A stretch of DNA of 64,000 bases, from positions 1-64,000 of the forward strand of contig NZ_KB907128.1 in NCBI RefSeq assembly GCF_000381825.1, read 5' to 3'. A program made the position numbers and the translations under genes. The DNA comes from Thioalkalivibrio sp. ALJT. GTDB taxonomy: Bacteria > Pseudomonadota > Gammaproteobacteria > Ectothiorhodospirales > Ectothiorhodospiraceae. Every line of letters begins with the position of its first letter. Position 1 is the stretch's first letter. Below are positions 42,710 to 61,230 of this stretch, piece by piece. The notes under the pieces are model-generated. The model worked only from the letters and a program-made list of their open reading frames with translations, was not told the origin of the DNA and did not search any database.

Positions 42710-42796
42710 GCCGCTGCATTGCCGGGCATGGCCGCCCCCGAAATGGCGCGGGTTGGTATTTTTGTGCCCAATTGTGTACTCTTCGCGGCGTTTCCT

Positions 42797-43006
42797 GGTA
42801 CCCGACCGGCTGCTGCAGGCGGGTTAAACGGGAAGTTCGGTGGGTCCGTCTCGCGCCAGCGAGGGATGAATCCGACGCTGCCCCCGCAACGGTGATCGAG
42901 CGGGGACCGCTCTCGGCGGTTCCCCACGGTCGCGGCATACCGCCACTGAGCAGACGCTCGGGAAGGCGCCGCGCCCGCAGCTCGTCAGCCCGGAGACCGG
43001 CCAGGG
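42797..43006 (+). promoter_or_regulatory. Cobalamin riboswitch (btuB leader)
   Basis: All conserved parts are present: GGTACCC at the 5' end, TTAAACGGGAAGTTCGGTG, GCTGCCCCCGCAACGGTGA (the core with CCCCGCAAC), CACTG with CGGGAAGGCG, and the B12 box GTCAGCCCGGAGACCGGCC at the 3' end. It lies 155 bases upstream of the btuB start and should shut the operon off when cobalamin is plentiful. The expression platform lies in 43007-43161; I could not assign it to transcription or translation. Confidence 0.95.
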
Positions 43007-43161
43007 AATGATCGCGCGGCATGCGGTGGGCATGCGAGGCGGATGATCGCGCCTGGCTGCGAGCCGATGGTGGCCGATCCCCCTCGTGTCCGTATTCCCC
43101 TGTCCGCACGATCCCGACGAATCAACGGCGTGCGGGCGGCTCGCCGGGAGACACGGACGAC

Positions 43162-44976
43162 ATGAAACGCACAGCACTTTCCACGGCCATCCTGCTGGCC
43201 ACCAGTCCCGCTCTGGCGGATACGCCGGATACCAACGACGCGCAAGCCCTGGAAACCGTCCAGGTCACCGCCTCTCGCATCGCGCAGACCGTCGACGAGA
43301 CGCTCGCTTCGGTGACCATCATCGACCGCGAAGAGATCGAGCGCCTGCAGCCCCAGCAGTTCACCGATCTGCTGGAGGGTCGAGCGGGTATCGAAACCGC
43401 ACAGAACAGCGCCTTCGGCAAGACCACTTCGGTGTTCACCCGCGGCACCAGTTCCGATCACACCTTGTTGCTGATCGACGGCGTGCGCATGGGATCGGCC
43501 ACCAGTGGCGGGGCAAGCTGGCAATTCCTGCCACCCGAAGAGATCGAACGCGTCGAGATCGTCCGCGGGCCACGTACCAGTATCTACGGCTCCGATGCCA
43601 TTGGCGGTGTCGTTCAGGTCTTTACCCGGGAAGGGCGCAAGGGCCCGCCAAAGGTCAATGCCTTCGTCGGAGGTGGGAGTTTTAATACCCGGGAAGCCGG
43701 GGTCGGTGTGGCCGGCGGTACTGAAAGTACCGACTACAGTCTCTCGCTCAGCCACTTTGCGACCGACGGTATCAATGTGCAGGATGCTGTCGGCGACGAT
43801 GACCGGGACGGCTACGACAACACCTCGCTGGCGAGCAGGGTTGCGCACCGCCTGGATAACGGCGTCGAATTCTTCGGAAACATCCTGTATTCGGAAGGTA
43901 CAACGGCGTTCGACAGCGGCTCGGCCTTTTCGCCAGATGAATCCGATTTCGTGCATGCGGCACTCCGTGGCGGCGTGCGCATCCCCGTCACGCAACGCTG
44001 GGACACCGAGCTGGCCCTGGGGCACAGCCGCGACGAATCGGATAATTTTCTTGAGGGTGAATTCTTTTCCCGGTTCGATACCCGTCGCGATATGGTCGAC
44101 TGGCGCAACGATATCGAAATTGCGGATGACGTTTATGTAATTGCCGGCATCGACGCGTACGAGGACCGGGTAGAAAGTACAACCGACTACGATGAGGACG
44201 CTCGATACAACGTCGGTGCGTACTCCGTGCTGAGTGTGGATCTCGGGCGGCATCACCTGGAAGGCAGCCTGCGCTACGACGACAACGAACAGTTCGGCGA
44301 CAAGACCACCGGTCAGCTGGCCTGGGGTTTACAGCTGAATGATCCGCTGCGGCTGCGTGCGTCCGTCGGTACCGCCTTCAAGGCGCCCACGTTCAACGAC
44401 CTTTATTTCCCCGGTTTCGGGAACCCCGATCTTGAGCCGGAGACCTCGCGCACCCTGGAGCTCGGTGCGCGTTATAGCACCGGTCCGTACTATGCCGATG
44501 TTGCCATTTTCCAGACCGATCTCGACCAGATGATCACCTTTGATCCCGTGGAATTTCGAGCCGAAAACCTGGACGAGGCCCGGATTCGTGGTATTGAGCT
44601 TGAGGGGGGGTACGCAACGACCCGCTGGGTCTCCCGCGCCTCGCTGACATTGCTGGATGCCGAAGATCGCGAAACCGGCAACGAGCTCCAGCGCCGTGCA
44701 CCCGTGACGGCTCGTGTGGATCTCGATCGCCAGTTTCAGCGTTTCTCCGTGGGTGGCTCGGTCATCGCGAAGAGCCGTTCGTTTAACGACCCCGGCAATG
44801 CCGATCGTCTCTCGGGTTACGGTCTGCTGAACCTGCGTGCGAGCTATCAGATTGCGCCGGAATGGCAGATTCAGGCGACGGTCAATAACGTATTCGACAA
44901 GGACTACGAAACGGCACTCGGCTACAACCAGCCGGGCCGGGCCGCGTTCGTGAAGCTGCGTTACCAGCAGAGGTGA
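43162..44976 (+). CDS. btuB: TonB-dependent outer-membrane corrinoid receptor BtuB
   Basis: 604 residues with a signal peptide (MKRTALSTAILLATSPALA), a TonB box (LETVQVTAS) directly after it, a plug domain (SVTIIDREEIERLQPQQFTD ... FTRGTSSDHTLLLIDGVRM ... IEIVRGP-like, IYGSDAIGGVVQV) and a 22-strand barrel ending in an aromatic-basic strand (FVKLRYQQR). Control by the cobalamin riboswitch and the corrinoid genes downstream identify the substrate as cobalamin or a precursor. First gene of the operon; the adenosyltransferase starts 3 bases after it. Confidence 0.95.
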   Translation: MKRTALSTAILLATSPALADTPDTNDAQALETVQVTASRIAQTVDETLASVTIIDREEIERLQPQQFTDLLEGRAGIETAQNSAFGKTTSVFTRGTSSDHTLLLIDGVRMGSATSGGASWQFLPPEEIERVEIVRGPRTSIYGSDAIGGVVQVFTREGRKGPPKVNAFVGGGSFNTREAGVGVAGGTESTDYSLSLSHFATDGINVQDAVGDDDRDGYDNTSLASRVAHRLDNGVEFFGNILYSEGTTAFDSGSAFSPDESDFVHAALRGGVRIPVTQRWDTELALGHSRDESDNFLEGEFFSRFDTRRDMVDWRNDIEIADDVYVIAGIDAYEDRVESTTDYDEDARYNVGAYSVLSVDLGRHHLEGSLRYDDNEQFGDKTTGQLAWGLQLNDPLRLRASVGTAFKAPTFNDLYFPGFGNPDLEPETSRTLELGARYSTGPYYADVAIFQTDLDQMITFDPVEFRAENLDEARIRGIELEGGYATTRWVSRASLTLLDAEDRETGNELQRRAPVTARVDLDRQFQRFSVGGSVIAKSRSFNDPGNADRLSGYGLLNLRASYQIAPEWQIQATVNNVFDKDYETALGYNQPGRAAFVKLRYQQR

Positions 44977-44979
44977 TCC

Positions 44980-45534
44980 ATGGGTAATCGACTGTCGAAG
45001 ATTGCGACCCGTACGGGTGACGAAGGCCGGACTGGGCTGGGCGATGGCTCGCGGGTGGACAAGGACAGCCACCGCGTCGAGGCGTTTGGTGACGTGGACG
45101 AGTTGAACAGTGTCGTGGGCCGGGTACTGGTCCACGACCTGCCCGAAGAGGTCCGTCGCTCGCTGGCGCTGGTGCAGCACGAGCTGTTTGATCTCGGAGC
45201 GGAACTGGCCGTGCCGGGGCATCAGGCCCTCCCGGAGGCTTCTGTGGAACGTCTGGACGTGGAGCTGGAGTCCTTCAACGATGATCTGCCCGCCCTGAAG
45301 GAGTTCATCCTTCCGGGCGGGGGTCCCGCTACGGCCGACTGTCACATTGCGCGTACCGTCTGCCGGCGTGCGGAACGGCGTCTGGTGGCACTCAATCACC
45401 ACGAGGCATTGCGTCCGGCGTCGCTGGCCTATATCAACCGGTTGTCGGATCTCCTGTTCGTGCTTTGCCGCGTGCTGGCTCGCCACGAAAACGGTGCCGA
45501 GGTCCTCTGGCAACCGGCCAACCAGCGCGGCTGA
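44980..45534 (+). CDS. PduO-type cob(I)alamin adenosyltransferase
   Basis: 184 residues of the PduO/EutT-like family: TRTGDEGRTGLGDGSRV binds ATP (residues 8-24), HRVEAFGDVDELNSVVGRV and RAERRLVALN complete the active site. It adds the adenosyl group to reduced corrinoids in the cytoplasm. A second, unrelated adenosyltransferase (CobO) is encoded 7 kb downstream in the same cluster. Starts 3 bases after btuB, so under the same riboswitch. Confidence 0.94.
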   Translation: MGNRLSKIATRTGDEGRTGLGDGSRVDKDSHRVEAFGDVDELNSVVGRVLVHDLPEEVRRSLALVQHELFDLGAELAVPGHQALPEASVERLDVELESFNDDLPALKEFILPGGGPATADCHIARTVCRRAERRLVALNHHEALRPASLAYINRLSDLLFVLCRVLARHENGAEVLWQPANQRG

Positions 45535-45645: not shown

Positions 45646-48600
45646 ATGCGTTTTCGTTGCACGATCCTGAGCGTTTTCGCGCTTTTTCTTTTCGCAATGG
45701 CCCCGGCGCATGCGGGTCCGCTCGTGGTGGGGGTGGTCTCCGATCGCTCGGCGGCGGAGGTGGCCGCTGGCGCGCATCGTTTCCTCGAGGCCCATCCGCA
45801 GGCGGAGGTGATCCTGCGGACGCCGGAGCAGCTCACGGACAAGTCGGATGAGGCGGTATCGGCACTGTGGCGCGAGGCCGACGCGGTGCTGGTGGCCGCG
45901 GTATTCGGGGATCAGGCCGCGCGCCTCGACCGTCTGTTGCGGGAGAGCCCGCCGCCCGAGGCGGCCCCGATTCTGGCGATCAACAGCGTGCGTCACCTGA
46001 CGGCCCTGTCGCGGATCGGCGGCGAGGCCGTACTCGTGGGTCTCGATGACGAGAAGCGCACCGAACTGGCGGCCAATCCCGACCCGGGTAAAGACCCGCG
46101 CGTGCACCTGGCCCAACAGCGGGAGCGTTTCCCCGAGCAGGCGGACTGGCTGACGGGGCGCGCGTTTTACCAGGGGCGCACGCCAGAGAATATGGAGGGG
46201 CTGATGCGCTGGCTGGCCGCGCGCGGCGGGCACGAGATCGACGTGCCGGAGCCGGACCCGCGCGAGACCATCCGCTATTACCGGCATGGGGACTCCAGTC
46301 CCGACCCGGACGATCTCGAGCTGGACGACGGGCCTGCCGTGGCGTTGCTGGATCTGGATACCGGCGACCGTCCAGGCGATCGGGAGCTGCTGGATGCGGC
46401 CTGCGAGGCCCTGGGGGCACGGGATATCCAGTGCTTCGCGGTGCTGGCGCGCTGGGGCGGGGCCAGCCGCGAGGCGGTCGAGACGCCGGCCGAGGCGGCC
46501 GGCCCGGCGGATCTGGCGGGGATCGTCAGCCTGCAGGACTTCGTGGTCGGTGGGGGCGGTAATCGCGAGGCGGTGGCCGAGGCCTTCGGCGAGCTGGATG
46601 TCCCGGTGATCAAGGGGATCCGCCTGGCGGATGTGAGCGCGACCCAGTGGCGGCTCTCGCACGAGGGCATTCCCTGGGACAAGGTCCACTATCACGTGGC
46701 GATGCCGGAGTTGCAGGGCGCCAGCCAGCCGCTGGTGCTCGCGACCGCGGGCGAGCCCGAACAGGATGCACGCACCGGCGTGCGTCTGACCCTGAGCGAG
46801 CCGGTGGGCGAGCGGGTGGAGGCCCTGGCCGACCGGGTGGCGCGCTGGCAGAGGCTGCGCCGCCTCGACAACGCGGACAAGCGCGTGGCGGTGGTCTACT
46901 ACAACCATCCGCCGGGTCGCCAGAACATCGGTGCGGACAAGCTGGATGTCCCCGAGTCGCTGCTGGAGATCCTGCAGCGACTCGAAGCCGCCGGATACGA
47001 CCTGGGCGACGAGGTGCCGGAGGATACCGAGGGCCTGATGGACATGATCCAGGACCGCGCCGTGAACCTGCCAGAACAGGCGGATGCGCTGGATGCGATC
47101 GCCGGCCGGGTTGCCTCGCTGGATCGCGACCAGTATCAGGCGTATTTCGATAGCCTGCCGGAGTCGGTCCGGGCCGAACTGGTCGACGGCCCGATCGGCT
47201 ATCTGCAGACACGCCTGGAGGCCGCCAGGGAGGCGGACAAGCACGAACTGGCGGCAGGCGCGCTGGAGGCCGGCGTCGGCGACCTGCGCCACATGCTGGA
47301 GAGTTATCCGCACGCTGCCCAGGAACGGGCCCTGGACCTGCTCGCCCAGTACCGGGCCGCCTGGGAGGCCACGTTGTCCGGTAATGACGCGCTCGCGACG
47401 ACCGAGCAACTGCGCCGCGCCCTGGTCCGTACGGGCATCCCCGGCCTGACCGGCTGGGGCGACCCGCCGGGAGAGGCGATGACCCGATACGGCGAGATGC
47501 TGTTCCCGGGGATCGAGTTCGGCAATGTATTCATCGGTCCGCAGCCGCCGCGCGGCTGGGAGGTCAGCGAGCGCCTGCTGCACGCGAATACCACGTTCCC
47601 GCCGACCCACCAGTATGTCGGCTTCTACCAATGGATCCGCGATCACTTCGAGGCGGATGCGCTGGTCTACGTGGGGCGTCATTCGACCCGCGAATTCCTG
47701 CCGCGCCGGCGTGCGGGCCTGGCCCCGGACGACTACCCGGAAATCCTTGGTGATGATCTGCCGATCATCTATCCCTACATCGTCGATGGCGTGGGTGAGG
47801 GCATCCAGGCCAAGCGCCGCGCCATGGGCGTGATGATCAGCCACCTGACCCCGCCGCTGGCGGCCACCGAGCTGTACGACAGCCTGCTGGAGCTGCGTCA
47901 GCTGGTGGAGACCTACGAGGCCGCAGCCCAGCCGGATGCGGCGACGCGCTCGCGGGCCGTCCAGACCCTGCGCGAGCGTATCGAGGACCTTGGCCTGACC
48001 GAGACCATCGAGCGTGAACTGGCGCGGGGCCATCACCACGATCACGGGCATCACCACGACGATCACCGCGATGGGCATCACGAGGGGCATCACGACGAAT
48101 CCGACTCCGGGCATGGCGAAGGGCATGCGGATGAACACGGCGACGAACATCGCCACGCGGACCATCACCGCGAACACGGGGATGAAGCCCACGAACATGC
48201 CAACGAACACGGTCATCATGAGGCTCATGCGGGGCATGGCGATGATGATCACGGGCATTCGGGCGATCATCACGACCACCATGGCCATGATCACAGTCAC
48301 GGGGATACCCCGCTGGCGGAGATGGACGAGGAGTTGCTGGTCCACGAGATCGGGCATTACCTGACCGACATGCAGGAAGACCAGATGCCGCTGGGGCTGC
48401 ATGTGTTCGGGCGCGACTGGAGCGACGAGGCCGTGGACACGATGCTCGAGTCGATGGCGGGTGACGCCGCGGTCGGCGACGGCTGGGACGCCAGGCTGCG
48501 TGGATCCCCGGCCAGCGAGCGCGCGCATCTGCTGGCGGCGCTGGAAGGCCGTTTCGTGCCGCCAGGGCAGGGCAACGATCCGATCCGCACGCCGGAGGTA

Positions 48601-50247
48601 TTGCCGACCGGGCGCAACTTCCACGCGCTGGCGGCGGATCTCGTGCCCACGCGTATCGCTTGGGGGATCGGTCAGGAGCTGGCCGTGGATGCCCGCGAAC
48701 ACGGCGATCCCGAGGCGGATGGCAGCGAGGCGATCATCCTCTGGGCATCGGATACCGTGCGCGACGAGGGTGTGATGATCGCCTTCGGCATGGACATGCT
48801 GGGCATTCGTCCGGCCTGGAACAGTCGCGGGATCGTCCAGGGTCTGGAGCGCATGGACCTCGACGAGGCCAAGCGCGACCGCCGTCGCGATGCGCTGTTT
48901 ACTACCTCCGGTCTGTTTCGCGACCTCTACGAGGATCAGCTGGTGTGGCTGGATCGTGCCGCCCGCCTCGCGCTGGACGGATCGTCCGAGACCATTCTTG
49001 CCGAGTACCCCGAGCTGGAAGAGGCACTGGAAGCGGCGTTGGCCCCGCTGGGGCAGGACCTGCGCGATCCGGGCGCCGAGCCGCTGGCGCGCAACGACGT
49101 GGCCGCGCAATGGGTGGAGGACACCCAGGCCCTGCGCGCCGCAGGCCTCGATGGCCTCGAGGCGGGTCAGCAGGCCGCGCTGCGGGTGTTCGGTACCGCC
49201 CCCGGGGCCTATGGGGCCGGGGTCAATCGTCTGGCGGACCGTTCCGGCGCCTGGGAGGACCGTGCCGAACTGGGCGCGGCCTATATGCGCCGGATGGGCC
49301 ACGCCTACGGGGCGGACGAATCCGGCGGCTCCGCGCACGAGGCCTTCGAGGCCCGGCTGGGCCAGGTCGGGCGCACCTACCTCGGGCGCGCCTCGCACCT
49401 CTACGGTCTGCTGGACAACGACGACGGTTTTGACTTCCAGGGCGGGCTCTCGACCGCGGTCGAGAGCATCCGTGGTGAGGTGCCGGACAACCGCGTGCTG
49501 CAGCACGCCGATCCGGAAAACCCGCAGGTGGAGACACTGGGCCGCGCGCTGATGCGCGAGCTGCAGGGGCAGAACCTGAACCCGCAGTGGATCGGGCCGC
49601 TGATGGATCACGGTTATGCCGGGGCCCGCACCATGGCCCGCGACTTCGTCGACAACCTGTGGGGCTGGCAGGCCACCAATCCCGAGATCATCCGCTCCTG
49701 GGTCTGGGACGAGGTACATGACGTGTACCTGCAGGACCGGCACGGACTGGGCGTGGACGAATTCCTCGCCGACGGCCACAACGTACATGTGAAGACCCAC
49801 CTGCAGGCCGTGCATCTGGTGGCCGCCAGTCGCGGGTTCTGGGAGGCCGATCCGGAGGTACTGGAGGCCCTGTCCGAACGCTTTGCCGTACTGGTGGCGG
49901 AACACGGCCTGCCGGGCAGTGGGCACACGCGCCCCGACCACCCGATGCTGGACGAGGTGGCCGAGCGCCTGGAGGACCCCGAACTGCGCGAGGCCTTCGA
50001 GGCCGTGCGCGCGTCCGCGCAGATCGATCGGGCGGAGCCCGAACCCGACCCCAGTCGTGTCACCGAGATCCAGCCGCTGGAAGACCCGGCGGCGCAAGAG
50101 ACGCCGGAGATCCCCGAACCGGCCGAGGCCGACGGCGGGCAGGAGGCTGGCGACGAGGCGGCGGGCATGCGCTGGCTCCCGTGGCTGGTTGCTGGCGTGC
50201 TGTTCCTGCTGCTGCTTGGCGGTATCGCCACGGGTCGGAGGCGATAA
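45646..50247 (+). CDS. Exported, membrane-anchored CobN-like chelatase with histidine-rich insert
   Basis: 1,533 residues, longer than the roughly 1,250 of cytoplasmic CobN. It has a signal peptide (MRFRC then a hydrophobic stretch ending APAHA, about residue 24), the CobN/BchH/ChlH-family body (for example VVYYNHPPGRQNIGADKLD near 423, HSTREFLP, DDLPIIYPYIVDGVGEGIQA, and a C-terminal NPQWIGPLMDHGYAGARTMA), a histidine/aspartate-rich insert at about 794-886 with dozens of His, and a C-terminal membrane helix (WLPWLVAGVLFLLLLGGI) plus RRR stop. The catalytic body would face the periplasm. Together with the ExbB-like and DUF2149 genes downstream it resembles HmuS-type systems, here under B12 control. 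Leader 45535-45645 holds two small hairpins. Confidence 0.9.
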   Translation: MRFRCTILSVFALFLFAMAPAHAGPLVVGVVSDRSAAEVAAGAHRFLEAHPQAEVILRTPEQLTDKSDEAVSALWREADAVLVAAVFGDQAARLDRLLRESPPPEAAPILAINSVRHLTALSRIGGEAVLVGLDDEKRTELAANPDPGKDPRVHLAQQRERFPEQADWLTGRAFYQGRTPENMEGLMRWLAARGGHEIDVPEPDPRETIRYYRHGDSSPDPDDLELDDGPAVALLDLDTGDRPGDRELLDAACEALGARDIQCFAVLARWGGASREAVETPAEAAGPADLAGIVSLQDFVVGGGGNREAVAEAFGELDVPVIKGIRLADVSATQWRLSHEGIPWDKVHYHVAMPELQGASQPLVLATAGEPEQDARTGVRLTLSEPVGERVEALADRVARWQRLRRLDNADKRVAVVYYNHPPGRQNIGADKLDVPESLLEILQRLEAAGYDLGDEVPEDTEGLMDMIQDRAVNLPEQADALDAIAGRVASLDRDQYQAYFDSLPESVRAELVDGPIGYLQTRLEAAREADKHELAAGALEAGVGDLRHMLESYPHAAQERALDLLAQYRAAWEATLSGNDALATTEQLRRALVRTGIPGLTGWGDPPGEAMTRYGEMLFPGIEFGNVFIGPQPPRGWEVSERLLHANTTFPPTHQYVGFYQWIRDHFEADALVYVGRHSTREFLPRRRAGLAPDDYPEILGDDLPIIYPYIVDGVGEGIQAKRRAMGVMISHLTPPLAATELYDSLLELRQLVETYEAAAQPDAATRSRAVQTLRERIEDLGLTETIERELARGHHHDHGHHHDDHRDGHHEGHHDESDSGHGEGHADEHGDEHRHADHHREHGDEAHEHANEHGHHEAHAGHGDDDHGHSGDHHDHHGHDHSHGDTPLAEMDEELLVHEIGHYLTDMQEDQMPLGLHVFGRDWSDEAVDTMLESMAGDAAVGDGWDARLRGSPASERAHLLAALEGRFVPPGQGNDPIRTPEVLPTGRNFHALAADLVPTRIAWGIGQELAVDAREHGDPEADGSEAIILWASDTVRDEGVMIAFGMDMLGIRPAWNSRGIVQGLERMDLDEAKRDRRRDALFTTSGLFRDLYEDQLVWLDRAARLALDGSSETILAEYPELEEALEAALAPLGQDLRDPGAEPLARNDVAAQWVEDTQALRAAGLDGLEAGQQAALRVFGTAPGAYGAGVNRLADRSGAWEDRAELGAAYMRRMGHAYGADESGGSAHEAFEARLGQVGRTYLGRASHLYGLLDNDDGFDFQGGLSTAVESIRGEVPDNRVLQHADPENPQVETLGRALMRELQGQNLNPQWIGPLMDHGYAGARTMARDFVDNLWGWQATNPEIIRSWVWDEVHDVYLQDRHGLGVDEFLADGHNVHVKTHLQAVHLVAASRGFWEADPEVLEALSERFAVLVAEHGLPGSGHTRPDHPMLDEVAERLEDPELREAFEAVRASAQIDRAEPEPDPSRVTEIQPLEDPAAQETPEIPEPAEADGGQEAGDEAAGMRWLPWLVAGVLFLLLLGGIATGRRR

Positions 50248-50268
50248 CGCTCGCCGGATATGTCTGCT

Positions 50269-50294
50269 GTAGGAGCCTGCAAGCAGGCTCCTGC
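50269..50294. repeat. REP palindrome, GTAGGAGC type
   Basis: GTAGGAGCCTGCAAGCAGGC followed by TCCTGC. AGGAGCCTGC and GCAGGCTCCT form a perfect 10-bp stem with a 2-base loop, 22 bases after the CobN-like stop. It may also stop or stabilise transcripts inside the operon. Confidence 0.85.
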
Positions 50295-50306
50295 GGGGTC
50301 GGGTTC

Positions 50307-50331
50307 ATGAATGAATGAATGAATGAATGAA
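50307..50331 (+). repeat. Tetranucleotide microsatellite (ATGA)6
   Basis: Six exact copies of ATGA followed by one more A, 20 bases upstream of the start codon of the ExbB-like gene and just before its GAGG ribosome binding site. Copy number could change by slippage and would alter spacing from upstream signals, not the reading frame. Confidence 0.95.
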
Positions 50332-50351
50332 GGGTAACGAGGTAAACGCGA

Positions 50352-50795
50352 ATGCCGTTCTCGATCACGATGGAACTGATGGACACCGTAGTGCGCTGGC
50401 TGCTGGAGCCGGTGATCATCGGTCTGCTGGTGCTGGTCGCGGTCGCCGTGTGGGAGCTTGGGCTCGCACTGGGCGAACGCTCCGGGGGGGTGCGGCGACT
50501 GGAGGCCACCGGTGACGCCGAGCGCCTGGCCTGTCGTGCACGGCGCCGCATTGACCGCGCGGATCTGCTGGCACGCATCGGCCCGATGCTCGGGCTGATG
50601 GGGACGCTGATCCCGCTGGGTCCAGGGCTGGCCGCGATGGGCCGGGGCGAACTGGAAATCCTCGCCCAGGCCGTTACGGTGGCGTTCAACACCACGGTGC
50701 TGGGGCTGCTGGTCGGCATCCTCGGCTTCCTGCTCGGGCGACTGCGGCGGCGCTGGTACGACGCCGCGATGGAGCGCCTGGATGCGGCGGCATGA
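50352..50795 (+). CDS. MotA/TolQ/ExbB-like proton channel protein
   Basis: 147 residues with three membrane helices: VVRWLLEPVIIGLLVLVAVA (about 13-33), RIGPMLGLMGTLIPLGPGLA (about 75-95) and AVTVAFNTTVLGLLVGILGF (about 108-128). The second and third match the conserved pore-forming part of MotA/TolQ/ExbB. It should form the stator pentamer that, with the DUF2149 protein, converts proton flow into mechanical work on a partner. GAGG at 50339-50342 precedes the start. Overlaps DUF2149 by 4 bases. Confidence 0.88.
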   Translation: MPFSITMELMDTVVRWLLEPVIIGLLVLVAVAVWELGLALGERSGGVRRLEATGDAERLACRARRRIDRADLLARIGPMLGLMGTLIPLGPGLAAMGRGELEILAQAVTVAFNTTVLGLLVGILGFLLGRLRRRWYDAAMERLDAAA

Positions 50796-51082
50796 GGGTC
50801 CCGCACTACCGCGCCAGCCGCTTCGATGCCCCCGACGAAGAGCCGATGGGCCCGTTGGCCAATCTGGCCGACATCATGCTGGTGTTCGCCGTCGGTCTGA
50901 TGGTGGTGATGGCCGCCTCGGGCAGCGGCCTTGAGCCGGCCAGTGGCGGCGCCGAGGTCCAACCCGGGCGCGAGATCCCGGAACCGCCCGAGGGTGCCGG
51001 CGAGGCCGGCTCCGGTTACGAGTCCATGGGGCAGGTGTACCGCGACCCGGACACCGGTCGCATGATCCTGATCGGCGAGTGA
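50792..51082 (+). CDS. DUF2149 protein, ExbD-like partner
   Basis: 96 residues with one membrane helix, LANLADIMLVFAVGLMVVMA (residues about 22-41). The aspartate at the start of the helix sits as the protonatable Asp of ExbD/TolR/MotB does. After a Gly/Pro/Glu-rich linker comes a short conserved end (GYESMGQVYRDPDTGRMILI). DUF2149 proteins occur with MotA/TolQ/ExbB and CobN-like genes. Start overlaps the ExbB-like gene by 4 bases, so the two are translationally coupled. Confidence 0.88.
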   Translation: MRVPHYRASRFDAPDEEPMGPLANLADIMLVFAVGLMVVMAASGSGLEPASGGAEVQPGREIPEPPEGAGEAGSGYESMGQVYRDPDTGRMILIGE

Positions 51083-51134: not shown

Positions 51135-52007
51135 ATGATCACTCAGGTCTGCCGATGCACGCGCGCTTTCGGTTGCAGCTTGCCCTGGGCCCCGGGGACC
51201 GGGTTTCTGGGCCTTGTCCTGACCGCGGGGTTGGTGTTTCCGGTAACGGCGACAGCGGGTGAGTGCCCGCGGATCGTCAGCCAGTCACCGTACATTACGC
51301 ACTCGCTGGAGTACCTGGGCCTGACCGCCTGCATCGTGGGGGCGAGCCGCTACGACGATCTCGACGTGGAGGATACGGGCGGCATTCTGGACCCGGACGC
51401 GCAGGCGATCGGCCGCGTCGAACCGGATCTGGCGTTTACCTCGAGCTGGGTCGAGCGCGATGACTGGGCCGATACCGTGCCGGCCGGGACCCGGGCCATC
51501 GTGCTGGGCGGCTTCGAAGGGATGGATGCCGTGCGCGAAAATCTCGAACGCATTGCGGATGCGGCGGGCCTGGACGACGGTGCCGTGCGCGCCGCCGGAT
51601 TCGACGATGCGTGGAAGGAGGCGGCCGATGCCGTGGGGGCCTCCGGCGAGCGTGCGGTCCTGATGTCCTCGTGCAGCGCGCAAGCTTACGTGTACGGCCC
51701 GAAGACCTGGCTGCATGATGCCTTCACCCGCGCGGGATTCGACGTCGTTGCGAACCAGCCAGGTGTGCATCACCTGAGGCTGTCGGAGGACACCGACGAA
51801 CTGGCCGATCTCATCAACCAGTATGACGCTGACGTGGTGTTCACCTTCTCCGGGGCCGAGGCGCGCAGCTGCCGAGCGGTGGTCGCATCGAGCCCGGTGA
51901 GGGTGGTGAATCTGGCAAGCGGGTATTTCTCGCACCCGGCGCCGGTGATCCTGGATGGACTGGCCGAGCTTCAAACGCGGCACACCGAGTGGGCGGCGTC
52001 CCAGTAG
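51135..52007 (+). CDS. Periplasmic corrinoid-type binding protein (BtuF-like)
   Basis: 290 residues with a signal peptide ending near residue 41 (VFPVTATAG). The mature protein is a class III periplasmic binding protein: PRIVSQSPYITHSLEYLGL ... IVGASRYDD ... EPDLAFTSS ... and a long middle helix. The family carries B12, haem or siderophores to a BtuCD-type transporter. No BtuC or BtuD gene is found in the window, so it may serve a transporter elsewhere or hand substrate to the CobN-like protein. GGGAG precedes the ATG. Confidence 0.85.
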   Translation: MITQVCRCTRAFGCSLPWAPGTGFLGLVLTAGLVFPVTATAGECPRIVSQSPYITHSLEYLGLTACIVGASRYDDLDVEDTGGILDPDAQAIGRVEPDLAFTSSWVERDDWADTVPAGTRAIVLGGFEGMDAVRENLERIADAAGLDDGAVRAAGFDDAWKEAADAVGASGERAVLMSSCSAQAYVYGPKTWLHDAFTRAGFDVVANQPGVHHLRLSEDTDELADLINQYDADVVFTFSGAEARSCRAVVASSPVRVVNLASGYFSHPAPVILDGLAELQTRHTEWAASQ

Positions 52008-52064: not shown

Positions 52065-52679
52065 ATGACCAACGATACCGACGCAGCCAAGGCCGAACGC
52101 CACGCCCGGCGCATGGCGCGCAAGAAGGAAGTGGTGGACCGCAAGATCGCCGAGGCCCAGGACGAAAAGGGTGTGTTCCTGATCCTGACCGGCAACGGCA
52201 AGGGCAAGAGTTCTTCCGGATTCGGCATGGTGGCCCGCGCCCTGGGTCACGGCATGCAGGTGGGCATCGTGCAGTTCATCAAGGGCCAGTTCGCGACCGG
52301 CGAGGAGGCGTTTTTTCGCGCGCAGGATCGTGTGCAGTACCACGTGATGGGCGAGGGCTACACCTGGGAGACCCAGGACCGCGAGAAGGACGTGGCGGCG
52401 GCTCGCGAGGCCTGGGCGCATGCCCGCGACATGCTGCGCGACCCGAATGTTGACCTGGTGCTGCTCGACGAGCTGCATATCGCCCTGAAATACCAGTACC
52501 TGGATGTGGCCGAGGTGCTGGAAGACCTGGCGAACCGCCCACCCATGCAGCACGTGATAACGACCGGCCGCGCCGCGCCGAAGGCCCTGATCGAGGCGGC
52601 CGACACCGTAAGCGAGATCGGCGTGGTCAAGCACGCCTTTCAGGCCGGCATCAAGGCGCAGAAGGGGATCGAGCTGTGA
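52065..52679 (+). CDS. cobO: CobO, corrinoid adenosyltransferase
   Basis: 204 residues of the CobA/CobO family: Walker A GNGKGKSSSGFGMVARALG (residues about 45-63), VGIVQFIKGQF, LVLLDELHIALKY (Walker B-like) and VITTGRAAPKALIEAAD. It adenosylates cob(I)yrinic acid a,c-diamide or cobalamin. GGAG precedes the ATG. Its presence with a PduO-type enzyme in the same operon is a duplication of the step by two unrelated families. Confidence 0.95.
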   Translation: MTNDTDAAKAERHARRMARKKEVVDRKIAEAQDEKGVFLILTGNGKGKSSSGFGMVARALGHGMQVGIVQFIKGQFATGEEAFFRAQDRVQYHVMGEGYTWETQDREKDVAAAREAWAHARDMLRDPNVDLVLLDELHIALKYQYLDVAEVLEDLANRPPMQHVITTGRAAPKALIEAADTVSEIGVVKHAFQAGIKAQKGIEL

Positions 52680-52757: not shown

Positions 52758-53346
52758 ATGGCCAATCCCCAATCCGCGCGCATGGATGCCGAGGCCTTCC
52801 TGGCGTGGGAGACCGAGCAGCCGGGGAAACACCAGTTTGTGGCCGGCGAGGTCTTCGCGATGGGCGGTGCCTCAGACCGGCATGTGACCATCGCCGGGAA
52901 TGTATTTTCAGCGCTGCGCGAACACCTGCGCGGGGGGGGGCTGTCGCACCTTTATCGCCGCCATGAAGCTGCGGGTGGAGGCGGCCGATGCCTTCTTCTA
53001 TCCCGACGTGATGGTGACCTGCGATTCCGCCGACCGCGGGCGCGAGCAGTACAAGGAGGCGCCGGTGCTGGTGGTGGAGGTGCTGTCGCCGTCGACCGAG
53101 GCCTTCGATCGGGGCGCGAAATTTGCCGCGTATCGTGCGCTGGACTCGCTGCAGGAGTATCTGCTGATCGACCCGGCAAGCGGCGCGGTGGAACTCTACC
53201 GGCGCGATCCGGAGAACCACTGGGTGCTGTACAGCCACGCTCCGCTGGATACCGTCGACTTGCGCAGCGTCGGAGTGATGCTGGAGGGCGGACGTATCTT
53301 CGAAGACGCGCCTCCAGGCGGCCCTTCGCCCGCGGACGGGGACTGA
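52758..53346 (+). pseudogene. Uma2-family (DUF820) nuclease gene broken by a frameshift in a G tract
   Basis: The first part, MANPQSARMDAEAFLAWETE through SALREHLRGGG, reads in one frame up to a run of nine G (52932-52940). The rest, CRTFIAAMKLRVEAADAFFY, PDVMVTCDSADRGREQYKEA and PVLVVEVLSPSTEAFDRGAK, continues in the next frame to 53346. Removing one G restores a full Uma2 protein of about 195 residues with the PD-x-V and VVEVLSPST motifs of this PD-(D/E)xK-like fold. Could be a true mutation, a phase-variable tract, or a sequencing error. A GGAGG site precedes the ATG. Confidence 0.88.
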
Positions 53347-53404: not shown

Positions 53405-54706
53405 ATGAGCGCTCCGGCGACCTGCCCCGCGGCGTTCGTGGCGGCCCCGGCCTCGGGTCAGGGCAAGACCACGATCACCGCCGCCATCGCCCGCTACCAC
53501 CGCAATCAGGGTTTGCGCGTCCGCGTGTTCAAGACCGGCCCCGACTTCCTCGACCCGATGATCCTGGAACAGGCCTCCGGGCATCCGGTGGACCCGCTGC
53601 ACCTTTGGATGGTGGGGGAGGCCGCGTGCAAGGCGAAGCTGTACGAGGCCGCACAGGAGGCCGACCTGATCCTCGTCGAGGGGTCGATGGGTCTGTTCGA
53701 TGGCGATCCTTCCGGCGCGGATCTGGCCGTGCGTTTTGGCCTTCCTGTATTGGCGCTGATTGATGCCGGAGGGATGGCCCAGACCTTCGGGGCGGTCGTT
53801 CACGGACTGGCGACCTACCGCTCTGACGTCTCGCTCACGGGCGTGATTGCCAATCGAACGGGTAGTGCTCGCCACGGGCAGATGCTGGCCGAGAGTATGC
53901 CGGAGGGCGTGCATTTCTACGGTGCCGTGCCCCGCAACGAGGGGCTCAGCGTGCCGGATCGCCACCTCGGTCTGGTGCAGGCCGGCGAGATCGAGGATCT
54001 CGATGCACGTTTGCAAGCGGCCGCCGAGGCGATTGCCGAGGCCGGAGTCACGGAACTCCCGGCACCGGTCACCTTCGAGCCCGAGCCAATGCCGGAGGTC
54101 ACGCGCGGTCTGGAAGGCGTTCGCATCGCGATCGCGCGGGATGCCGCGTTTGCGTTTACCTATCCCGGCAATGTGGATCTGCTGCGCGCGATGGGTGCCC
54201 GGCTGGAGTTCTTCTCTCCGGTGGCCGGTGACCGGCTGCCGGAAGTCGATGCCGTGTGGTTGCCCGGCGGGTACCCGGAACTGCATCTGGACGCCCTGGC
54301 GGCCAATGTCGGGCTCAAGCGGGATCTTGCCGAGCATCATGCGGCGGGGCGGCCGTTGCTCGCCGAATGTGGCGGGTTCCTCTATCTGCTGGATGAATTG
54401 ACCCATCGCGATGGGCATCCGGCATCCATGGCCGGTCTGATTTCAGGTCATGCCCGCCTGGAGCCCAAACTCCAGGGGCTGGGCCTCCAGAGTGCCCCAC
54501 TGCCCGAAGGCGAGCTGCGTGGCCACACCTTCCACCATACCCATGCCGAGGTGCACTGGGAGCCGATTGCACACTGTCGCCGAGCACGCGACGGCGGAAC
54601 CGCGTCCGAGGCCGTGTACCGTGAAGGGCGCCTGACGGCCGGATATTTGCACGCCTACTTCCCGTCCAATATTCGGGCCACTCTGGCCTTGTTTCGCCCG
54701 AACTGA
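53405..54706 (+). CDS. cobB: Cobyrinic acid a,c-diamide synthase
   Basis: 433 residues in two domains: an N-terminal ATP-binding dethiobiotin-synthetase-like domain (ASGQGKTTITAAIARYH, GPDFLDPMIL, VEGSMGLFDG) and a C-terminal class I glutamine amidotransferase with the nucleophilic cysteine in LLAECGGFLYLLDEL (about residue 320) and a late GYLHAYF. It amidates the a and c side chains of cobyrinic or hydrogenobyrinic acid. Its place with cobO shows that the host can process corrin rings beyond simple salvage. Confidence 0.95.
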   Translation: MSAPATCPAAFVAAPASGQGKTTITAAIARYHRNQGLRVRVFKTGPDFLDPMILEQASGHPVDPLHLWMVGEAACKAKLYEAAQEADLILVEGSMGLFDGDPSGADLAVRFGLPVLALIDAGGMAQTFGAVVHGLATYRSDVSLTGVIANRTGSARHGQMLAESMPEGVHFYGAVPRNEGLSVPDRHLGLVQAGEIEDLDARLQAAAEAIAEAGVTELPAPVTFEPEPMPEVTRGLEGVRIAIARDAAFAFTYPGNVDLLRAMGARLEFFSPVAGDRLPEVDAVWLPGGYPELHLDALAANVGLKRDLAEHHAAGRPLLAECGGFLYLLDELTHRDGHPASMAGLISGHARLEPKLQGLGLQSAPLPEGELRGHTFHHTHAEVHWEPIAHCRRARDGGTASEAVYREGRLTAGYLHAYFPSNIRATLALFRPN

Positions 54707-54796: not shown

Positions 54797-55357
54797 TCAG
54801 CGACGGCGATAGTTGTCGTGGCAGGCGAGGCACTGGTGGCGTACGCCGTTCAGGACCTCGGTGGCGCGTAGCTGAAAGCCCTCGTCCTCCAGGTCGTCGG
54901 CCGCGTCGACTTTTCGTTGCAGCTCGGCCGTGGCCTCGCGGAATGCCGCCTTGTATGCGGAGAACTCCGGGTCTTCCCAGGCCTTGGGGAGCGCCCCCGG
55001 TTCGCCTTCGCGAGCCGGTGTCTCCTGTGCGAACCCGGTTTCGATGTCGTCGCCCCTGCGCGCCAGTTCGCGGGCAAGGTCGGGCAGTTGCCCTGCGAAT
55101 GGTGCGCCATAACGCAGGATCTGCTCGATGCTGCGGTAGGTGGCCGATGTGCCCTGCATGCTCTGCTGACGGAAGCGCTGGAAGGCCTCGGTCGCATCCA
55201 CTTCGGCCGGATCGTCCAGGGTCTCGTCATAGTCGCCCCAGGGGCCCGGCATTGTGACAGTGACCTCCGCGGTGGCCGGGCTGCCGGTGGCAGCCAGCAA
55301 CAGGATCGCAAAGAGGGTGGTTCTCAACGGGTGATGGATCGGTTGCATCCGGTTCAT
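54797..55357 (-). CDS. Cytochrome c'-like exported haem protein
   Basis: 186 residues. Signal peptide MNRMQPIHHPLRTTLFAILL to about residue 30, then a helical domain with a single haem-binding CLACH (C-x2-CH) a few residues from the C terminus, followed by DNYRRR, as in cytochrome c'/c556-type four-helix cytochromes. These bind nitric oxide or carry electrons in the periplasm. Start at 55357 is chosen for a GGGAG site 6 bases upstream. It begins 22 bases after the porin gene and therefore lies on the same riboswitch-controlled transcript. Confidence 0.87.
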   Translation of the reverse strand: MNRMQPIHHPLRTTLFAILLLAATGSPATAEVTVTMPGPWGDYDETLDDPAEVDATEAFQRFRQQSMQGTSATYRSIEQILRYGAPFAGQLPDLARELARRGDDIETGFAQETPAREGEPGALPKAWEDPEFSAYKAAFREATAELQRKVDAADDLEDEGFQLRATEVLNGVRHQCLACHDNYRRR

Positions 55358-55378
55358 GTCGATTCTCCCGGTCATTTC

Positions 55379-56494
55379 TCAGAAGCGGAACTGGTGCTGC
55401 AGATGCAGCTCCCAATCCGAGGTATCGGTGTCGCGGTCCAGCCACATCAGCTGGGTCTTGTGCCGCTGGCCACGGTGATACCAGTTGAGGCCGGCACCCC
55501 ATTCACGCTGCCAGCGCTCGTCAGTGCCAAGATCGTCGCCTGCGTCGTGGCGCAATACGGCGTGGCGTGCGGCGAACTCCAGTCCCTCCATTGGCAGCGA
55601 CTGCGCCAGTTCCAGTTCGGCCCCCAGGTCGTGGTAGCTCGCGGTCCGGTCTGGCGAGACGTCGCGCCGGAATGCGGCCAGCGAGAGCGAGGTGTGACCG
55701 AACTTGATCACGGCATCGGCCGTGGTGGTCAACCAGTCGGCGCGCTGATTGGCCACGTTGTCTTGGAGGCCGCGGCTCCAGTCGCGCAGGTGGTTGCGGT
55801 TGGCGGTCTGTACGCCGGCGCCCAGTGCGACGGTGCGCTCCACGGCCTGGCCTAACGTGGTGTTGTCGCGCGGGACCGCGCCGACCGGGGCCCACGCGCC
55901 GCGCGCGCTGAACAGGTGGCCGGATGTGGAGGGGCGATCGTCGCGCTGATCCAGACGCCCGCGACCGTCGAACACGCCGATGGCCCATGCCCTGTCGTCG
56001 CCGGCGCCGCCCAGCAGGGCGATACCGGTGTCGCGGCCGGCCGGAACCTCGAACGGGTTGCCGGCGATGCTCAGTTCGGTGAACAGGCGGTTGGGGCCGC
56101 CGATATCCCGCGACAGGCCAAAGGGGACCGTAAACTGGCCAGCCCGCAGGCCCAGGTGTTCACCCATTGCGTACTGCAACCAGATGTCGCGCATGGACAC
56201 CTCGCCGCTGCTGAAGTCCGGTTGCAGGCGGAAACTCAGATCGGGGTGGAACAAAGTGCCCGAGGTGTCCAGCCAGGCGCGACGGAAGTCGAATTCGCTG
56301 CTGGAGCCATCCGGGTCTCGTTCGTAGCTGTAGCGGCCCTGGATCAGCGGATCCAGGGTGACGTGCAGGCCGTCTTCCGCGTCGCCAAACTCGAAACCGG
56401 CATGTGCCGGCGCGATGCCCGTGGCTGTCATCAGGCACAGGGTGGCCAGGACCGGAACGGCGTGTTGCCCCGGTCGGAGATGGGTATGGTTCAT
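55379..56494 (-). CDS. O/P-type outer-membrane porin under a cobalamin riboswitch
   Basis: 371 residues: signal peptide ending GIAPAHA (about residue 32), LIQGRYSYERDPDGSSSEFD near the start and FRRAWLDTSGTLFHPDLSFR, followed by repeated amphipathic strands and a C-terminal HLQHQFRF, all typical of phosphate-selective porin O/P relatives. The specificity cannot be read from sequence. Immediately upstream on the same strand lies a full cobalamin riboswitch (56634-56837), so it is expressed when cobalamin is scarce, which suggests passage of a corrinoid, a precursor or cobalt. Confidence 0.88.
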   Translation of the reverse strand: MNHTHLRPGQHAVPVLATLCLMTATGIAPAHAGFEFGDAEDGLHVTLDPLIQGRYSYERDPDGSSSEFDFRRAWLDTSGTLFHPDLSFRLQPDFSSGEVSMRDIWLQYAMGEHLGLRAGQFTVPFGLSRDIGGPNRLFTELSIAGNPFEVPAGRDTGIALLGGAGDDRAWAIGVFDGRGRLDQRDDRPSTSGHLFSARGAWAPVGAVPRDNTTLGQAVERTVALGAGVQTANRNHLRDWSRGLQDNVANQRADWLTTTADAVIKFGHTSLSLAAFRRDVSPDRTASYHDLGAELELAQSLPMEGLEFAARHAVLRHDAGDDLGTDERWQREWGAGLNWYHRGQRHKTQLMWLDRDTDTSDWELHLQHQFRF

Positions 56495-56633
56495 TGTCGG
56501 GTTGCTCCCTTGGACGCGCGACCCCGCACGCCGTGGATGAAACGACGCCGGGGACTGGACAGGGAGCAGGGAGGCCGGGCGATGCGGGCACGCCGGTCTG
56601 GCCCGCTCGGCCGCCCACCGCGGCGTCGGGTGT

Positions 56634-56837
56634 TCTCCAGGCCGGTCTCCGGACTCGCGGAGGAGATGCGCGATGCATCCAGGGTGGATCGCGTTCCCGC
56701 GGGCATCCCGGGGATGCGCCGCAGTGGCATTGGATCCGCCCGTCTCCGCCTACCGTTACGGGGGCAGTGCCGGCATTGCGAATGTCGATTCGCGCACCGG
56801 CTTCCCGATTATCCCCGGCGACTGAACGCCGGGGCAC
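56634..56837 (-). promoter_or_regulatory. Cobalamin riboswitch (porin leader)
   Basis: On the minus strand: GGTGCC at the 5' end with a CCGGCG/CGCCGG hairpin, GATAATCGGGAAGCCGGTG, GGCACTGCCCCCGTAACGGT (core, with GTAAC where GCAAC is usual), GCCACTG, and the B12 box GAGTCCGGAGACCGGCCTGG at the 3' end. It points to the porin gene at 56494, 140 bases away. Bases 56838-57096 on the other side hold no gene I can support. Confidence 0.93.
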
Positions 56838-57096
56838 CTGGAGAGGGGCGAACCGTAGTGGAGGGAAATGAGGGGGGCAAGTTTGTCGGAATCCGGGGAA
56901 ACGGTGCAGCGGGCGTACATTCGGGTTCCCCTGGAGGCCGCTGATTGATCCAGACCATCTCCCGGCCGGATTTTGATCGCGACCCGGTTCCCGCGTCTGC
57001 AGGGTGGGTTTCAGGTGGTTTGGACCGAGTCTGGTTCGGTCCGTGCCGATATCCATTCCTCCGAAGGATCGCTGGCGGGTCGGAGACGAGGGCGCG

Positions 57097-59978: not shown

Positions 59979-60197
59979 CTAGAATTCGAACTGTGCTCGG
60001 GCAGCCAGCACGTGGTTGCCGTTCGCCACGCCACCGCGGCCCTCATAGTCGAAGTACATGTAGTTCAGCTTGAACACCATGTCCTGGTTCGGATACCAGT
60101 TCAGACCGAGGGTGTAGTGGTCCATCTTGTTGCCGCGCCCGACGCGTGTGTGCTCCATCGAGTCGGCATGGGCATAACGTGCTGCGATTTCCCAGCT
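59979..60197 (-). pseudogene. C-terminal fragment of an O/P-type porin fused to a permease remnant
   Basis: The last 72 codons encode SWEIAARYAHADSMEHTRVG and then LGLNWYPNQDMVFKLNYMYF, ending NHVLAARAQFEF, the terminal strands of a phosphate-selective porin with the outer-membrane C-terminal Phe. The reading frame continues without a stop into the ABC permease remnant upstream. Such a fusion is not a functional protein; it marks a deletion that joined two genes. Confidence 0.85.
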
Positions 60198-61230
60198 AGG
60201 GAGTGCTCCTTGCCATTGATCGGCCACGCTGGTCACCAGCATGGCGAAGTAGGGGAGCAGCGTGGACAGGAAAAACAGGCCGCCGAACCAGGTCAGTGCC
60301 AGCAACCGAGCGCTCCAGCCCAGCTGGAACTGATGGGGTGTTTCCGGCTCGTAGCGTCCGCCGCCCATGAAGTTCGCCAGCAGGCGCGATCCGTACAGCG
60401 CGATCAGGGCGACCAGGCACAGCAGGGAGGACAGGGCCGTCGCCAGCGCCAGGTCGAGAGGCCAGCTGGTGACCAGATAGAAGATCTCCGCTGGCAGCAA
60501 CGGGAGATTGGCGCGTGTACCCAGCACCGCCGGTACACCGAAGTTCGACAACGCCTCCAGAAACACCAGCAGGCCGGAGTTGAACAGCGCCGGCAGCATC
60601 AGCGGGATGATGATGGCGCGCAGGGTCTGGCCCCAGCTGGCGCCCAGCTGGATCGCGGCGATTTCCAGCCGTCGCGGGATGGATGCCAGCGCGGCCTCGG
60701 TGGCCAGTGCGACGTAGCCGAAGGAGGCCAGCGCCATGACCACGGTCACGCCCCAGAATGAAAAGAACCAGGCACGCAGCCCCTCGGGCATTGGGCCCAG
60801 CAGCTGGTCGAAGAACCCGCCGTCCTGCATCACCAGGATGTAGGAAAGCGCCGCGATGTAGGGCGGGGTCATGATCGGGACCAGCAGCGAGAGCCGGGCC
60901 CAGAGCTTCCCGGGCAGGTTGGTGTGTGCAAGCAGGTAGCCGCAGGGCACACCGAAGATCCAGCTGACGACCGTCGTTGCGGCCGCCCATGCGAAGGAAT
61001 TCCACAGCATGGCCCCGATGCCCTCGGTTTCGCCGATACGGCGATAGGCATCGAGAAAACCGTCGAAGCGCCCCCCCCAGGATTTCCGGGAAGATGCTGG
61101 TCAGGAACAGCAGAACCAGGGGGTAGCCGGCACCGATCAGCAGCAGGATCCCGACCAGCAGCACGGGGAGTCGGGTGCTGGCCCAGGACAGGATAAACGG
61201 CCGCACGGCTGGGCGGGTGGCGGCCATCAT
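60198..61230 (-). pseudogene. Ferric-type ABC permease, frameshifted and truncated
   Basis: The first 54 or so residues (MMAATRPAVRPFILSWASTR ... FLTSIFPEILGG) read in one frame; the rest (RFDGFLDAYRRIGETEGIGA, then MLWNSFAWAAATTVVSWIFG and the permease signature LEIAAIQLGASWGQTLRAII) reads in another. The break is a run of eight C (61071-61078; G on the coding strand), where nine would restore the frame. The second half of this FbpB/two-domain permease is missing after about helix 7. Start overlaps the binding-protein stop (ATGA). Confidence 0.85.

Follow-up and report, generated by a model that had tools for sequence, protein, structure and literature searches.

In this study, we analysed an operon of Thioalkalivibrio sp. 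ALJT, contained in a window of 64,000 nucleotides (NZ_KB907128.1, positions 1-64,000, forward strand; "the window" below means this whole stretch), whose central gene encodes an exported protein of the CobN family. We refer to the exported CobN-family proteins of its clade as BtuS-type, or BtuS for short. Our proposal, held with a confidence somewhat short of even, is that BtuS serves the corrin pathway as a class I chelatase: anchored in the membrane and working in the periplasm, it would insert cobalt and be driven by a proton channel formed by its ExbB-like and DUF2149 neighbours. The proposal starts from features observed in the DNA, namely, export signals, family membership, a common operon, a cobalamin (B12) riboswitch, the homology of the neighbours to known motors, the joint absence of membrane helix and motor in some members, an aerobic corrin pathway with no other CobN or CbiX in relatives, and the ABC-2 transporter genes of ring-making relatives. 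The operon of the window is ordered as follows:

42779-43019, plus strand: cobalamin riboswitch preceding the operon (Rfam RF00174, 81.1 bits, gathering threshold 31.5)
43162-44976, plus strand: btuB, TonB-dependent B12 receptor (best NCBIfam model TIGR01779, TonB-B12, 575.9 bits, just under its cut-off of 599.7; PF00593, PF07715)
44980-45534, plus strand: pduO, PduO-type corrinoid adenosyltransferase (PF01923; TIGR00636, 197.4 bits, cut-off 108.45)
45646-50247, plus strand: BtuS-type exported CobN-family protein, 1,533 amino acids (PF02514 CobN/Mg-chelatase, 803 bits, E 6e-241)
45646-45714, plus strand: signal peptide of the CobN-like protein (MRFRCTILSVFALFLFAMAPAHA; relatives also have hydrophobic N termini)
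47680-47682, plus strand: codon of H679, equivalent of HmuS His-538 (His in 83/83 BtuS)
48001-48300, plus strand: lineage-specific His-rich insert (36 His per 100 residues)
49423-49425, plus strand: codon of D1260, aligned with HmuS His-1209 (Asp in 83/83 BtuS)
50173-50235, plus strand: C-terminal membrane helix, then RRR (hydropathy; its occurrence is coupled with the motor genes)
50352-50795, plus strand: ExbB-like three-helix protein (PF01618 MotA_ExbB, 38 bits, cut-off 22.9)
50792-51082, plus strand: DUF2149 protein with ExbD-like, Asp-bearing helix (PF09919, 36.1 bits, cut-off 27.1)
51135-52007, plus strand: BtuF/TroA-like substrate-binding protein, a weak assignment (TIGR04281, 38 bits, and NF038402, 24.5 bits, both under cut-off)
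52065-52679, plus strand: cobO, corrinoid adenosyltransferase (TIGR00708, 229 bits, cut-off 167.75)
52900-53346: Uma2-family open reading frame (ORF) between cobO and cobB, found also in 3/91 related loci
53405-54706, plus strand: cobB, (hydrogeno)cobyrinate a,c-diamide synthase (NF002204, 410 bits, cut-off 254)

The coordinates and reading frames given in a preliminary description of this DNA proved correct. Its account of a CobN-family protein of 1,533 residues with a signal peptide and a helix at the C terminus (both recognised from sequence and hydropathy), followed by ExbB-like and DUF2149 genes and lying downstream of a B12 riboswitch and btuB, is borne out by the scores listed above.

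Family, export and the putative motor

A protein search of 369 genomes of the class gave matches in 42: the own genome, 11 others from its clade, with 44-66% identity along long segments, and 30 with weaker partial matches. Six of these 30 were assigned to CobN, BchH or another exported CobN. By BtuS, Thioalkalivibrio are closest, with 84-92% best-segment identity in most, and one genome of the same genus (G223) had no match to the BtuS protein. From a GTDB scan with the clade profile, the best 80 of 293 confirmed loci were kept; according to their titles, they come from Gamma-, Alpha- and Betaproteobacteria, Nitrospirota, Nitrospinota and Myxococcota, and many are metagenome-assembled genomes. 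In the whole set of loci, the pairs L050/L139 and L051/L140 each look like one genome counted twice. In four loci (L111, L131, L138, and L146), BtuS is split into two or three ORFs, by real breaks or sequencing errors.

The preliminary description had left the position of the protein relative to HmuS and cytoplasmic CobN to a phylogeny. In a tree of 39 rows (26 BtuS, HmuS, three other exported CobN-like proteins, seven CobN, and two Chl/BchH), all 26 BtuS rows form one clade (100/100), with HmuS and the three other exported proteins on the BtuS side (90/88), apart from CobN and Chl/BchH; the HmuS branch is very long and its exact place is unsure. The window protein stays far below the three NCBIfam CobN equivalog cut-offs (556 versus 1619, 530 versus 1248, and 506 versus 822). 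Against solved structures, including PDB entries 9fpc/9frc and 9uk9-9ukc, the clade profile scores 486 bits for HmuS, 479 for CobN and 452 for ChlH, and the window protein alone scores 343 for CobN, 326 for ChlH and 315 for HmuS; a structural model of BtuS (900 of 1,533 residues, mean predicted local distance difference test [pLDDT] 73) ranks HmuS first, then CobN and ChlH. Together with the export signals, the tree and the equivalog scores support the view that BtuS is exported and is not an ordinary CobN. Other deep exported CobN-like clades are represented by genes of Trichlorobacter (L164, 4316-9321), a gammaproteobacterium (L054, 5369-10211) and Cupriavidus (L165, 5020-9093), the first two with ExbB-like and DUF2149-like neighbours.

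At the active site (numbering of the window protein), H679 is shared by all 83 BtuS, HmuS, 7/7 CobN rows and 2/2 Chl/Bch rows. The pair His-538/His-1209 of HmuS (LSLDHxxEFMGG) is not complete in BtuS, in which the first His is kept and the second is Asp, D1260, as in 6/7 CobN rows; H733 is His in BtuS as in CobN, and Tyr in HmuS and Chl/Bch. Compared with HmuS alone, BtuS is CobN-like at 38 sites, HmuS-like at 16 and neither at 29, with a similar ratio in other exported CobN proteins. The Met-rich insert of HmuS was not found in 12 proteins, one of them partial (at most 7 Met per 100 residues). The His-rich insert noted earlier is present in the window protein, but we rejected it as a functional core, since it is confined to some lineages and absent from most relatives: among 11 first-compared relatives (one partial), His density did not exceed 9 per 100 residues, and in a larger set 18 of 72 full-length proteins had at least 16, the others at most 9. 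The His-rich members belong to Thioalkalivibrio, Vreelandella utahensis, Halospina, Halovibrio and three metagenome-assembled genomes (Halomonadaceae, Aquisalimonas, and Alcanivorax).

The products of the two genes that follow BtuS are candidates for the parts of a proton channel. The model of the ExbB-like protein (pLDDT 92.6) is built of three long helices, and the 22 top-ranked Foldseek matches are all ExbB or TolQ (best E 0.014 at probability 1.00; none passes E 0.001). The Asp of the DUF2149 helix, already pointed out in the preliminary description, is invariant in 12/12 aligned sequences; its motif, Asp-Ile-Met-Leu-Val, resembles ExbD of the same genome, and hhalign places it on the ExbD Asp in a weak match (probability 1.4%, E 0.037). 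Both genes stand beside BtuS in all 11 clade genomes other than the own one; in L051 they are separated by a CbiE-like methyltransferase gene. Among 91 BtuS loci, 83 of which could be evaluated (8 were not judgeable), the C-terminal helix, the exbB-like gene and the DUF2149 gene are all present in 61 and all absent in 22, with no mixed case; the same table holds seven non-BtuS control loci without helix and motor and also lists L054, with another exported CobN. This joint occurrence supports a tie between BtuS and an ExbB-like/DUF2149 motor.

B12 control and the aerobic corrin pathway

An Rfam scan found a cobalamin riboswitch in 25/32 BtuS loci, upstream on the same strand in 23 and only downstream in two (L145 and L155). 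The scan detected none in the other seven loci (L052, L053, L024, L151, L141, L130 and L156); for four of them, L024, L151, L141 and L130, little or no upstream sequence was available. The riboswitch ends ~40-155 bases before the BtuS frame in seven loci (L045, L046, L049, L149, L153, L157, and L162), and in three of these (L149, L153, and L162) no other B12 gene was found in the stretch examined, so that the riboswitch appears to serve the three-gene unit only. A riboswitch motif scan was positive in 59/91 loci and in 0/91 after mononucleotide shuffling. B12 uptake genes are frequent across the 91 loci (BtuB in 71, BtuF in 49, BtuC in 47, and BtuD in 57), and a CobW-like gene occurs in 1/95 stretches from BtuS genomes, compared with 5/7 ordinary CobN loci (6 of 11 control stretches). 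The riboswitches support a link of BtuS to B12 control.

The host genome (2.66 Mb, estimated 100% complete) has BtuS as its only PF02514 gene and holds two tetrapyrrole methylases, and therefore does not synthesise the corrin ring. CobS was not found above its cut-off, with two weak matches of ~30 bits (best 31 versus 558 for TIGR01650; ChlI/ChlD were not searched for), and CbiX is marginal (21.7 bits, cut-off 22). In addition to CobB and CobO, the genome has a second cluster, on contig C10, with CobQ, BluB, CbiB, CobD, CobT, a CobC-like phosphatase (below cut-off) and BtuF-, BtuC- and BtuD-like genes, none of the last three at its Btu equivalog cut-off. From this gene content, the host is probably able to complete cobalamin starting from early cobalt corrins, but not to build the ring itself. 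The genome has six MotA/ExbB genes, including the ExbB-like gene of the operon. We also considered the motor as a replacement for BtuCD, in view of an operon without btuCD, and rejected this, given FecCD permeases in 17/17 genomes and the Btu-like genes on contig C10.

Several relatives do hold a ring-making pathway. CobG marks the late-cobalt, aerobic route, and CobG, CobI, CobJ, CobM and CbiD all exceed NCBIfam cut-offs in G236, with the same set recognised by similarity in G121 and G089; tetrapyrrole methylases number 7, 8 and 6 in G236, G121 and G089, respectively. In G236, the genes run in the order BtuS, exbB-like, DUF2149, bluB, cobO, cobB, cobA, cbiD, ABC ATPase, ABC-2 permease, cobG, cobH, cobI and cobJ. 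Searches of the whole genomes showed that BtuS is the only PF02514 gene in all three, and CbiX was not found in any of them. An aerobic pathway without any other CobN in these relatives favours insertion over removal or transport: the exported chelatase may stand in place of the usual cobalt-inserting enzyme, and some bacteria may thus insert cobalt outside the cytoplasm. Among the other clade genomes, CbiX is clear in G072, G140 and G202 and stays below cut-off in G155.

The same arrangement extends to the genus of the host. The operon runs into cbiD in eight Thioalkalivibrio loci (L084, L085, L088, L092, L093, L094, L102, and L114), the first six of which also show cobG; in three others (L083, L089, and L091) no cbiD was found in the stretch examined. 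In L085, CobA, CbiD, the ABC-2 permease, CobG and CobH exceed their cut-offs, and four-base ATGA overlaps join cbiD to the ATPase gene, the ATPase gene to the permease gene, and cobG to cobH; cobG, whose start is not fixed, has a frame that reaches back over the last part of the permease gene, but this junction is not an ATGA overlap in the same sense, the ATG there being out of the cobG frame. The permease belongs to the ABC2_membrane family and is ~50% identical to Escherichia coli YadH; the transporter is YadGH-like.

Among 90 BtuS loci, 11 hold cbiD and 79 have none in the stretch examined. The permease is present in 9/9 cbiD loci with enough following sequence, and in 0/79 BtuS loci without cbiD; of the other two cbiD loci, L046 ends 95 bases past cbiD and its continuation (L171) has the permease, and L102 ends 26 bases past cbiD and is not judgeable. 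Counted by genome, cbiD is followed by the genes for both ABC-2 components, ATPase and permease, in 10/10 cases where this is visible, with cobG beyond them in nine (L114 ends first). The permease was found in none of nine ring clusters without BtuS (3 from genomes and 6 from plasmids; cobG detected in 7/9), and three ring clusters without BtuS show CobN and CobW beside cobG.

Proposed cobalt insertion and competing explanations

Class I chelatases need a motor, for a reason that is not fully understood, ring distortion being one idea, and CobNST inserts cobalt late, into hydrogenobyrinate a,c-diamide (PMC7689651). In the mechanism that we propose, the exported CobN-like body would bind a corrin ligand, and the ExbB-like/DUF2149 proton channel would grip the C-terminal helix of BtuS and power cobalt insertion, replacing the ATP-driven CobS/CobT motor of the cytoplasmic enzyme. 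No ATP is to be expected in the periplasm; therefore, an ExbB-type motor acting through the C-terminal helix would be a natural substitute. In ring-making relatives, the ABC-2 transporter would export metal-free corrin, and BtuFCD would re-import the cobalt corrin for adenosylation by CobO. Export, insertion, re-import and adenosylation would form a consistent cycle, which would fit the gene order. In hosts without ring synthesis, such as the present one, the chelatase would put metal into, or back into, corrin ligands that enter via BtuB. The substrate, the direction of the reaction, the use of proton energy and the cargo of the ABC-2 transporter are what we infer in this scheme. The fuller version, in which metal-free corrin is pumped out by ABC-2, receives cobalt in the periplasm from an exported, proton-driven CobN relative and returns by BtuFCD, and in which ring-less relatives metallate corrins scavenged from neighbours, is possible but rather doubtful.

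Several observations weigh against cobalt insertion by BtuS. HmuS, its nearest characterised exported relative, removes metal, namely, haem iron (PMC12583661). The residues point partly elsewhere: CobN can be told from the three porphyrin enzymes by 11 sites, and of these BtuS matches the porphyrin enzymes at 6, CobN at 2 and neither of them at 3. Neither such signatures nor the similar scores for the PDB structures of HmuS, CobN and ChlH decide for a corrin substrate. The substrate of CobN, the a,c-diamide, is made by CobB in the cytoplasm (PMC7689651), which makes the step order awkward in salvagers that have no exporter; where there is no pump, the chelatase step would have to precede that of CobB. 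In 3/11 clade genomes (G202, G256, and G143) no CobB was found, and the loci of G256 and G143 (L052 and L053) showed no cobalamin riboswitch either. In G236, G121 and G089, the absence of another cobalt-inserting enzyme extends to PF02514 and CbiX; CobST/ChlID and CbiK were not searched for. The operons that combine ring synthesis and transporter come from two lineages only.

A further point on this side is that 22 BtuS loci, all Marinobacter by title, have no motor. The four Marinobacter rows of the tree are nested beside Halomonas, and the absence of the motor is therefore probably one loss; Marinobacter BtuS keeps its signal peptide and active-site residues (22 rows). As PF09919 missed a known DUF2149 positive (L098), this absence was re-examined with a dedicated profile (A3), which found DUF2149 in 0/8 Marinobacter genomes and in 4/4 others. 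In Marinobacter mobilis, the BtuS operon occurs on two contigs (L126 and L135) with identical gene coordinates.

A first alternative is that BtuS handles corrinoids without any metal chemistry, binding them in the periplasm while the motor drives their release to BtuF or their transfer between BtuB and the inner membrane. We regard this as unlikely, though it has real points in its favour: the strong link to btuB and the B12 riboswitch, the presence of BtuFCD in many loci, and a transport role suggested for the related Geobacter cluster (PMC3403914). It sits badly with the invariance of the chelatase His, H679, with BtuS standing in for CobN in aerobic clusters, and with BtuF-, BtuC- and BtuD-like genes that are already there, as in the host genome.

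A corrin dechelatase or metal exchanger, which like HmuS would strip wrong metals or cobalt from periplasmic corrinoids, appears improbable to us. BtuS shares architecture and branch with HmuS, and the His-rich insert of some members lies between the same aligned blocks as the long unaligned stretch of HmuS; in all 83 BtuS, however, HmuS His-1209 is replaced by Asp, and dechelation would leave BtuS as the sole CobN homologue of aerobic clusters unexplained. A B12 riboswitch is expected to switch its operon on when B12 is scarce, and removal for cobalt harvest fits poorly with such control. The preliminary description had inferred a corrinoid machine and left insertion, removal and transport open; what stands is an exported protein, distinct from CobN and linked to motor and B12, for which the aerobic pathway favours insertion and cobalt harvest fits poorly.

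That BtuS could be an HmuS orthologue, a haem-iron dechelatase sitting in the B12 regulon by chance, is very improbable. The set of exported CobN, ExbB-like and DUF2149 genes is that of hmu operons (PMC10434189), and 5/91 loci have, near BtuS, a TonB receptor similar to the one in the Trichlorobacter exported-CobN cluster, but BtuS forms a separate clade, lacks the Met-rich insert and has a B12 riboswitch in 25/32 scanned loci, and DUF2162 of the Trichlorobacter cluster occurs in 0/91 loci. The window neighbours are a B12 riboswitch and corrin genes, with no hmuY/hmuR-type operon (HmuY and iron control were not searched for). The last alternative, to which we give hardly any credence, is a normal CobN that acts in the cytoplasm together with CobST. 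Only PF02514 and the cobB and cobO neighbours speak for it, and we rejected it on account of the signal peptide, the membrane helix, the tree position, the lack of a CobS over its cut-off and the equivalog scores.

Relation to described systems and further observations

BtuS resembles HmuS, the haem dechelatase of the Hmu operon of Bacteroidota, in being an exported, membrane-anchored CobN-type protein with ExbB-like and DUF2149 partners and the invariant chelatase His; it differs in the missing Met-rich insert, the Asp for His-1209, the B12 riboswitch, the corrin gene neighbours and its separate clade. With CobN of CobNST it has in common the family, the catalytic His, the Asp at the D1260 position, the cobB/cobO neighbours and, in relatives, the aerobic pathway, whereas it is exported, has proton-channel partners rather than AAA+ CobS/CobT, is rarely found near CobW and belongs to another branch of the tree. 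The motor shares PF01618, three helices and an ExbD-like Asp helix with TonB-ExbB-ExbD and TolQR, with the differences that its proposed partner is a chelatase with a helix of its own and that DUF2149 takes the place of ExbD.

The name BtuS is in use for a third CobN type with a predicted role in metalloporphyrin salvage (PMC6460266, citing Rodionov 2003). Its Bacteroides members are predicted to be exported, as is the window protein; unlike the latter, they (BtuS1/2) are tied to haem iron, and the passages of that paper concerned with them mention no motor, exporter or aerobic-operon link. A CobN of Geobacter (Trichlorobacter) lovleyi, described in 2012 and encoded on a plasmid without CobST among TonB genes, was given a suggested role in cobalamin metabolism (PMC3403914). 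Like BtuS, it lies beside ExbB, DUF2149 and TonB receptors; it differs in its clade, DUF2162 and a TonB-ExbB-ExbD set, and no exporter or B12 riboswitch is described in the passages cited. HmuS is also treated in PMC13227078, BtuS of Methanosarcina in PMC10846266, and chelatase evolution in PMC9227772. Given the exported relatives already in print (PMC6460266, PMC3403914), the earlier claim that a corrinoid version would be new holds only in part: we found no description of a proton-motor corrin chelatase, or of an exporter in a cob operon, in the open-licence literature searched.

If the proposed cobalt insertion is correct, BtuS would be a class I chelatase powered by the proton motive force instead of ATP, and a B12 route would pass through the periplasm. 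This would explain why a bacterium unable to make the ring keeps cobB, an exported CobN and cobO under a B12 riboswitch, would predict a microbial trade in metal-free corrins, and would assign a mechanistic role to the ExbB-like/DUF2149 pairs of hmu operons. As a Marinobacter plasmid member is annotated "cobaltochelatase subunit CobN", predictions of B12 prototrophy from cobN could mislead.

Elsewhere in the window, on the minus strand, a second cobalamin riboswitch (56623-56856) precedes genes for a Porin_O_P-type porin (55379-56494) and a protein resembling cytochrome c' (54797-55375); the arrangement recurs in Thioalkalivibrio sp. ALJ7 (L083, riboswitch at 19435-19656). An ORF at 59979-61010 (minus strand) combines an ABC permease domain (BPD_transp_1) with a Porin_O_P tail, possibly as a fusion or gene remnant, and is neighboured by genes for a substrate-binding protein and an ABC ATPase.

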